DNA from: an uncultured Spirochaetales bacterium | GTDB lineage: Bacteria; Spirochaetota; Spirochaetia; Sphaerochaetales; Sphaerochaetaceae | DNA: 32,374 nt | Reading direction: 5' to 3' | Assembly: GCA_949283235.1 (NCBI GenBank) | Contig: CASDRY010000084.1 | Location: 1-32,374, forward strand | Shown here: piece after piece, positions 31,768-32,374 of the stretch | Position numbering within the stretch: position 1 is the first letter of the stretch | How the letters are laid out: every line of letters starts with the position of its first letter | The notes under the pieces: generated by a model | The model's database searches: none | Seen by the model: only the letters and a program-made list of their open reading frames with translations | What the model was told of the DNA's origin: nothing | Made by a program: the position numbers and the translations under genes

Positions 31768-32145
31768 ATGGGATTTTCAGTTTATAAATGCCCGGATTGC
31801 GGGACAATCGTAATGATGATCAAGAAGGGTGGATGCACACCATCATGCTGTGGCCATGCTATGCCTGAGCTTTCAGCAAATACAACAGATGCCGCACAGG
31901 AGAAGCATGTTCCAGTTGCAGAGGTCAAGGGAAATGAGATTGTGGTAAAGGTTGGCTCAGTTGCACATCCAATGACAGAAGAGCACCTTATCGAATGGAT
32001 TGCTCTTGAGACAAAGAGCGGAGTAGAGATCAAGTATCTCAAGGCTGGAGAGACTCCGGAAGCAGTATTCGCAAACAAGGGAGATGCAGTTGCAGTTTAT
32101 GCGTATTGCAATCTTCATGGGCTATGGAAATCAGAGCTTAACTAA
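31768..32145 (+). CDS. Desulfoferrodoxin / superoxide reductase, two-iron form
   Basis: Reduces superoxide to hydrogen peroxide without making oxygen, a usual defence of anaerobes. The 125-residue protein has both metal sites. Center I is the desulforedoxin-like Fe(Cys)4: C8 and C11 (CPDC), C27 and C28 (SCC), with an extra C23. Center II ligands are H47 (EKHVP, with E45 and K46), H67, H73 (EEHLIEW), C114 and H117 (YCNLHGLW). The mononuclear neelaredoxin form seen in some treponemes lacks center I cysteines. ATG 31768 has AAGGAG. It follows the kinase by 55 bases; a consensus TATAAT at 31748 is too close to the ribosome site to be a normal promoter. Confidence 0.95.
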   Translation: MGFSVYKCPDCGTIVMMIKKGGCTPSCCGHAMPELSANTTDAAQEKHVPVAEVKGNEIVVKVGSVAHPMTEEHLIEWIALETKSGVEIKYLKAGETPEAVFANKGDAVAVYAYCNLHGLWKSELN

Positions 32146-32172
32146 ATTAAACTGCTATAAGTATAATATGGA

Positions 32173-32205
32173 TTAAGGGGTGAAGTGATATCACCCCTTA
32201 ATTGT
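32173..32205 (+). terminator. Terminator after the superoxide reductase
   Basis: TTAAGGGGTGA (32173-32183), loop AGTGATA, TCACCCCTTAA (32191-32201): a perfect 11-bp stem, then TTGTTT. The A-rich left side lets it also act on the minus strand. Confidence 0.85.
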
Positions 32206-32227: not shown

Positions 32228-32254
32228 TATAATAAAAGCCCTATCTGCACAGCG

Positions 32255-32283
32255 TTGCAACATATGAACAATAGACATAATAT
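32255..32283 (+). promoter_or_regulatory. Predicted promoter before the right-edge structured element
   Basis: TTGCAA (32255-32260), 17-bp spacer, TAATAT (32278-32283). The start would lie near 32290, where the series of stems begins. Confidence 0.55.
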
Positions 32284-32285
32284 TT

Positions 32286-32374
32286 GTACACTCAATTCTG
32301 AGTACAGGGCATGTAGCTGAGTGATGTGGTAGTCCCGGCTACATCGTCCCGTTATCCAGAATAGGGACTACCAC
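32286..32374 (+). other. Structured element with interleaved stems, cut by the window edge
   Basis: There is no reading frame of note here. Three stems are visible: GTAC-A-CTCA/TGAG-TAC (32286-32305); ATGTAGC (32311-32317) with GCTACAT (32338-32344), extended by GGG/CCC across an internal loop; and GTGGTAGTCCC (32326-32336) with GGGACTACCAC (32364-32374). The last two interleave as in an H-type pseudoknot. It may be a regulatory RNA leader, a small RNA, or the end of a mobile or repeated element; I do not recognise a known class. Confidence 0.5.

Follow-up and report, generated by a model that had tools for sequence, protein, structure and literature searches.

The window, the whole stretch of DNA that was analysed (32,374 nucleotides), is an entire contig (C84) of an Ornithospirochaeta-like spirochaete MAG of 147 contigs, from a genus that contains a record named Candidatus Ornithospirochaeta (G029). 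Near its right end lies a gene (31768-32205) whose translation we take to be that of a desulfoferrodoxin/superoxide reductase, followed by a terminator-like hairpin (GGGGTGA..TCACCCC). About 35 bp beyond this begins the left end of an insertion sequence (IS) of the IS1595 group, 140 bp on the forward strand (32235-32374), as are all the parts of it described below, and cut by the contig end. It opens with a 26-bp terminal inverted repeat, AAAGCCCTATCTGCACAGCGTTGCAA (32235-32260), which recurs at the other IS end. The promoter-like hexamers TTGCAA (32255-32260) and TAATAT (32278-32283) are 17 nt apart; the promoter proposed in an earlier sequence-only reading is correct in spelling and spacing but weak, with four of six matches per hexamer and a score under the threshold of a consensus scanner, and the pair is a candidate for a weak internal promoter of the transposase gene. 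A small hairpin, ACTCA-ATTC-TGAGT (32290-32303), described in the same reading as a third stem, follows.

The remainder of the IS end is dominated by two helices, S1 and S2, found where that reading had placed its 7-bp and 11-bp pairs. The core of S1 pairs ATGTAGC (32311-32317) with GCTACAT (32338-32344) over 7 bp, or 9 bp if one G-U is allowed (arm a, 32311-32319; arm a', 32336-32344), and S2 pairs GTGGTAGTCCC (arm b, 32326-32336) with GGGACTACCAC (arm b', 32364-32374) over 11 bp with no mismatch. The helices interleave in the order a-b-a'-b', with base 32336 common to b and a' when both are taken at full length, and a Shine-Dalgarno (SD)-like AGGGA (32363-32367) overlaps b'. Besides pairing itself, arm a is backed by a native duplex better than all swapped ones, a' by an energy estimate, b by the comparison of S2 columns and the pair count, and b' by homologues. 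When the 89 bases were shuffled 20,000 times with dinucleotides preserved, interleaved pairs of 7 and 11 bp never arose, bearing out the claim that both pairings are improbable by chance; an 11-bp perfect pair alone arose in 14 of the shuffles. Scanning the rest of the window in steps of 10 gave no further 89-nt stretch with such an interleaved arrangement. No intrinsic terminator was found, and an HDV-like ribozyme, considered for its nested topology, was ruled out by the lack of space for P3 between b and a'.

The window thus ends in the left terminus of an IS1595-group insertion sequence that is present in several copies. A mismatch-free repeat of 139-140 bp ends five contigs (C84, C37, C6, C68 and C65), among which the sequence before AAAGCCC is unrelated; besides C84, two contigs stop at the identical base and two more one base sooner. 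C84 stops there because the IS repeat broke the assembly, and since the contigs break off after 139-140 bases of this sequence, the 11-bp repeat at the edge marks an assembly-graph branch point. Its position flush with the window edge is thus real, but it is an effect of assembly common to the other contigs, and the shared ends of about 140 bases probably represent the k-mer overlap left by an assembler that used k=141. As alternatives to a structured RNA, the sequence-only reading had offered a transposon end or an assembly-breaking repeat; given the five-contig repeat and C119, which carries a complete relative in this genome, both hold at once, and the element is therefore not a free-standing unknown RNA. 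A riboswitch or host RNA is ruled out by the five copies with differing flanks.

The right IS end is found on four contigs (C58, C31, C32 and C29), where the same 26-bp repeat adjoins a different 114-nt interior which, read towards the repeat, is an open frame ending in YEKVRFILDRMISTSVIVRYPRKRPDYHTKDNYDV and a stop. The last 35 codons of this frame, the only visible part of the transposase of the window's own IS, match positions 310-329 of a 331-position transposase profile. The flank TTATATAA is common to C37 (left end) and C58 (right end), which fits an 8-bp target duplication of this IS. Exact matches to the 26-bp terminal repeat were absent from the genome-contig and viral-contig collections scanned, as were matches to the transposase profile among the viral contigs. 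A second IS type lies near the start of C79 (L031/L033, G000) and encodes a DDE_Tnp_1 (IS4-like) transposase of 483 aa; it was ruled out as the source because its C-terminus differs.

The relative on C119 is a complete element of 1188 bp with the terminal repeat AAACTCCTATCTGCACAGCGTTGC, flanked on both sides by the 8-bp target duplication AAAACTTT; 8-bp duplications also occur at several further complete copies. Its transposase (331 aa) contains an IS1595 DDE domain, borderline at 27.3 bits against PF12762 (DDE_Tnp_IS1595; cut-off 27), and an N-terminal IS1/IS1595 zinc domain (NF050000; 40 bits, cut-off 28). IS1595 elements have one gene, encode a DDE enzyme with a zinc finger in most cases and duplicate 8 bp of target (PMC8101967; PMC12561309, both citing Siguier et al. 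2009 as the source for the family). The present elements resemble the family in their DDE_Tnp_IS1595 and zinc domains, single gene and A/T-rich 8-bp duplications, so that by sequence C119, with its terminal repeats and its borderline DDE domain, is assignable to IS1595, but these transposases form a separate group, as the NCBIfam IS1595 model NF033547 gives 70.4 bits, just below its cut-off of 75. Transposase relatives on plasmids share at most about 29% identity.

Transposase homologues were gathered from 17 of the 48 genomes of the genus and 37 of the 139 of the family. Directly upstream of the transposase start, the order a-b-a'-b' is present in about 18 sequence types of the IS group, from one spirochaete family and one genome of another family. 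Every full leader read comprises arm a, a loop mostly ending in GAT, b (GTGGWAGNC..), a' and b' (..GNCTWCCAC). The start codon lies 0-4 nt after b', a layout that is slightly shifted or changed in K, O and Q, the most distant types; for the window's own IS it falls beyond the contig end, and the gap is read from these homologues. The S1 arms show no sequence kinship between types and yet stay complementary, as in types B (GGGAAGGCCAGA/TCTGGCCTTTCC), D (ACAGCATGATGG/TCATCATGCTGT), G (GGCTGGATAG/CTATCTGGCC), M (GGAATGATTTGTT/AACAAGTCATTCC) and P (GCCGGCCGG/CTGGCCGGC); taken singly, types C, J, K and L each have a modest S1. Changes in S2 are compensated from T-A to A-T in column 5, A-T to G-C in column 6 and T-A to C-G in column 8, and C-G, T-A, A-T and G-C all occur in column 10. 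The bare S2 sequence pattern was discarded as a search of the genus, being too loose and yielding many chance matches.

In support of S1, a swap test on the whole a and a' regions, with no preselection of paired segments, found the duplex energy of a leader's own a/a' to be better than every cross-type combination in 23 of 25 leaders; in each of the remaining two, one swap was equal or better. Across 17 types, 98.5% of cells are paired and double changes occur in 10 of 16 pairs, a count that leans towards S1 because its segments were picked by complementarity, and the covariation score for these types is 0.727, against 0.155 for shuffled and at most 0.125 for slid alignments. In 23 of 25 leaders, interleaved helices by the start codon were equalled in only 0-1 of 200 dinucleotide shuffles, in a test whose 7-bp minimum and no-overlap rule left out type C, with an S1 of 6 bp, and the window, where S1 and S2 have one base in common and which was scored separately. 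A covariance model of S2 (R2), built from 15 other leaders with the window left out, matches the window at 32320-32374 with 33.7 bits and an E value, for the window as a whole, of 2.1e-6. Homologues thus compensate rather than break the pairing of both stems, the comparison on which the sequence-only reading had staked its claim, and the window stems almost certainly belong to a conserved a-b-a'-b' structured RNA. That they are repeats arisen by chance in an ordinary transposon end is extremely improbable: the stretch is such an end, but the shuffles and the compensation over 17 types stand against chance and the homologues contradict it.

The repeats lie less than 140 bp from one terminal repeat, as subterminal transposase-binding sites or single-stranded DNA hairpins would, in which case the RNA pairing would be incidental. 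Such a role at the level of DNA is very unlikely, as S1 preserves complementarity and not sequence, the distance of the arms is fixed to the start codon and not to the terminus, and the 114-nt interior of the other end of the window's IS has no such repeats. In the reading as RNA, the two interleaved helices, each backed by compensation, carry the mark of an H-type pseudoknot as far as sequence comparison can supply it. No Rfam family exceeded its threshold for the window leader or the homologous leaders, and homologues were recovered from related genomes; of the proposed unknown structured RNA there survives a pseudoknot-type RNA absent from Rfam and with compensated pairing, though neither free-standing nor a riboswitch.

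The stems would form the 5' leader of the transposase mRNA. In most types AGGA, AAAGGA or GAGG lies 7-10 nt ahead of the start codon, within or at the edge of b'; b' of types B and L has no clear SD, and that of types F and H a weak one. Because of these SD-like bases, a closed S2 is predicted to hide the SD and start region, and their place inside a putative helix is a mark of leaders that sequester the ribosome-binding site (RBS). In the proposed mechanism the leader folds as an H-type pseudoknot: S1 would close a hairpin with b in its loop, and b would then pair with b' just before the start codon, blocking the ribosome, so that transposase is made rarely and transposition is limited. Since the element contains the two arms in full, transcripts reading in from host promoters would be silenced too. 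S1 would probably fold first, while the RNA is still nascent, leaving b' briefly free, and S2 would close afterwards. S1 can also grow into a long hairpin in competition with S2, and the leader is thus probably bistable. By analogy, the most likely role of the leader is repression of transposase translation, and on balance we favour an IS-end leader that is an H-type pseudoknot, possibly exchanging with the long S1 hairpin, and limits transposase translation; we infer the presence of both helices in one molecule, the lowered translation and the timing alike.

Judged by nested energies alone, most leaders favour the long S1 hairpin, which leaves b' free. By a crude stacking sum, the pseudoknot of the window amounts to -27.3 and the long hairpin to -28.6 kcal/mol, about 1.3 apart; most types fall within a few kcal/mol either side, and types A, I and K clearly disfavour the pseudoknot. 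The leader may accordingly alternate between open and closed states. A tentative extension of this, which we regard as possible but doubtful, is a two-state RNA timer, in which the long S1 hairpin frees the start on the nascent RNA and the pseudoknot shuts it; transposase would then be translated only briefly after transcription, and compensatory evolution in two partly exclusive folds would keep the switch across many IS types. Some plasmid replication genes, for example IncI-type repZ, need an activating fold, and the same preference for a hairpin with b' free could be read as positive control, with the pseudoknot or the long S1 hairpin exposing or positioning the start site as an activator or standby-site fold. 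This is quite unlikely, since S2 covers the SD directly and is kept by compensation, which repression fits better. Slightly less unlikely is an autogenous operator, in which the pseudoknot binds the transposase (or a host protein or antisense RNA), locking the fold and repressing translation when enzyme suffices. The enzyme carries a zinc ribbon and its N-terminus is basic, and b/b' (GATGTGGWAGTCC / GGACTWCCAC) are conserved beyond the need for pairing, suggesting a sequence reader; this conservation could, however, reflect common descent, the SD or pairing alone, and RNA binding is putative.

H-type pseudoknots over start sites are found in T2/T4 gene 32, ribosomal protein leaders and preQ1 class II. 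The leaders described here share with these the a-b-a'-b' topology and a 3' arm at the RBS, but differ in having no known ligand or protein, and S1 extends to about 20 bp, beyond simple H-type geometry if S2 is also formed. Transposase leaders that hide the RBS are already known: a fold in the 5' leader of IS200 tnpA does so (PMC12594629), and in the 5' UTR of ISPpu9 tnp a fold buries the RBS and its weakening raised expression of a fusion 26-fold (PMC8450116). The present leader, predicted from sequence, likewise places a fold over the transposase RBS. IS200 differs in belonging to another IS family and in using a stem-loop, where two interleaved helices are kept by compensation here, and ISPpu9, also of another family, has a 245-nt UTR that is opened by an antisense RNA, with no pseudoknot mentioned (PMC8450116). 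A literature search, conducted mostly outside subscription journals, returned no account of an IS1595 pseudoknot or of a pseudoknotted transposase leader; the RNA fold appears to be new and the mobile element ordinary. Self-limitation of the transposase is common to most IS elements, and the RNA devices that serve it are known only in part. With the pseudoknot kept over about 18 IS types while the sequence of S1 has changed wholly, the leaders constitute a candidate new RNA family, one that offers a testable function, the control of transposase translation, together with natural variants, and the IS leader accounts for a motif that recurs at contig ends in MAGs of gut spirochaetes.

Within the order, R2 matches 27 of 139 genomes, and those matches that were examined fall either at the start of a transposase or, inside the element, at the edge of a contig; among 395 genomes of the class there is one further match, in another family (G207), which is also an IS leader. 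The motif is absent from a remote spirochaete IS1595 relative (L194), and the leaders of ISOar1, ISCaje5 and a streptococcal phage IS1595 element, from other bacteria and phages, look ordinary, so the conserved form belongs to one clade. A possible parallel case outside it is carried by a plasmid of Tenericutes bacterium MO-XQ (CP017949.1; L139, 611-714), where an a-b-a'-b' arrangement ends 2 nt before the annotated start of an IS1595-like transposase that is a remote relative (about 25% identity). Its S1 of about 25 bp and S2 of 8 bp (GACGTTCC/GGAACGTC) are unlike the spirochaete leaders in sequence; because the order is the same, a timer of the kind outlined above, if real, may be in use among IS1595 elements far outside the spirochaetes.

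Further observations were made near related elements. A copy of the archaeal IS1595-family element ISH4 (L143) has a perfect palindrome, GGGTGACGCGGCCGCGTCACCC, shortly upstream of the transposase start at 568, perhaps another means of hiding a start. Group II intron domains (RF02001, RF01998) lie on the reverse strand at 600-884 of L036, about 0.5 kb from an IS1595-type element, and 3' of the transposase in L040 a TnpB-like ORF with the C-terminal zinc motif CPICGHKHDG..CPVCGYTEERDTKGA lies near another such element.
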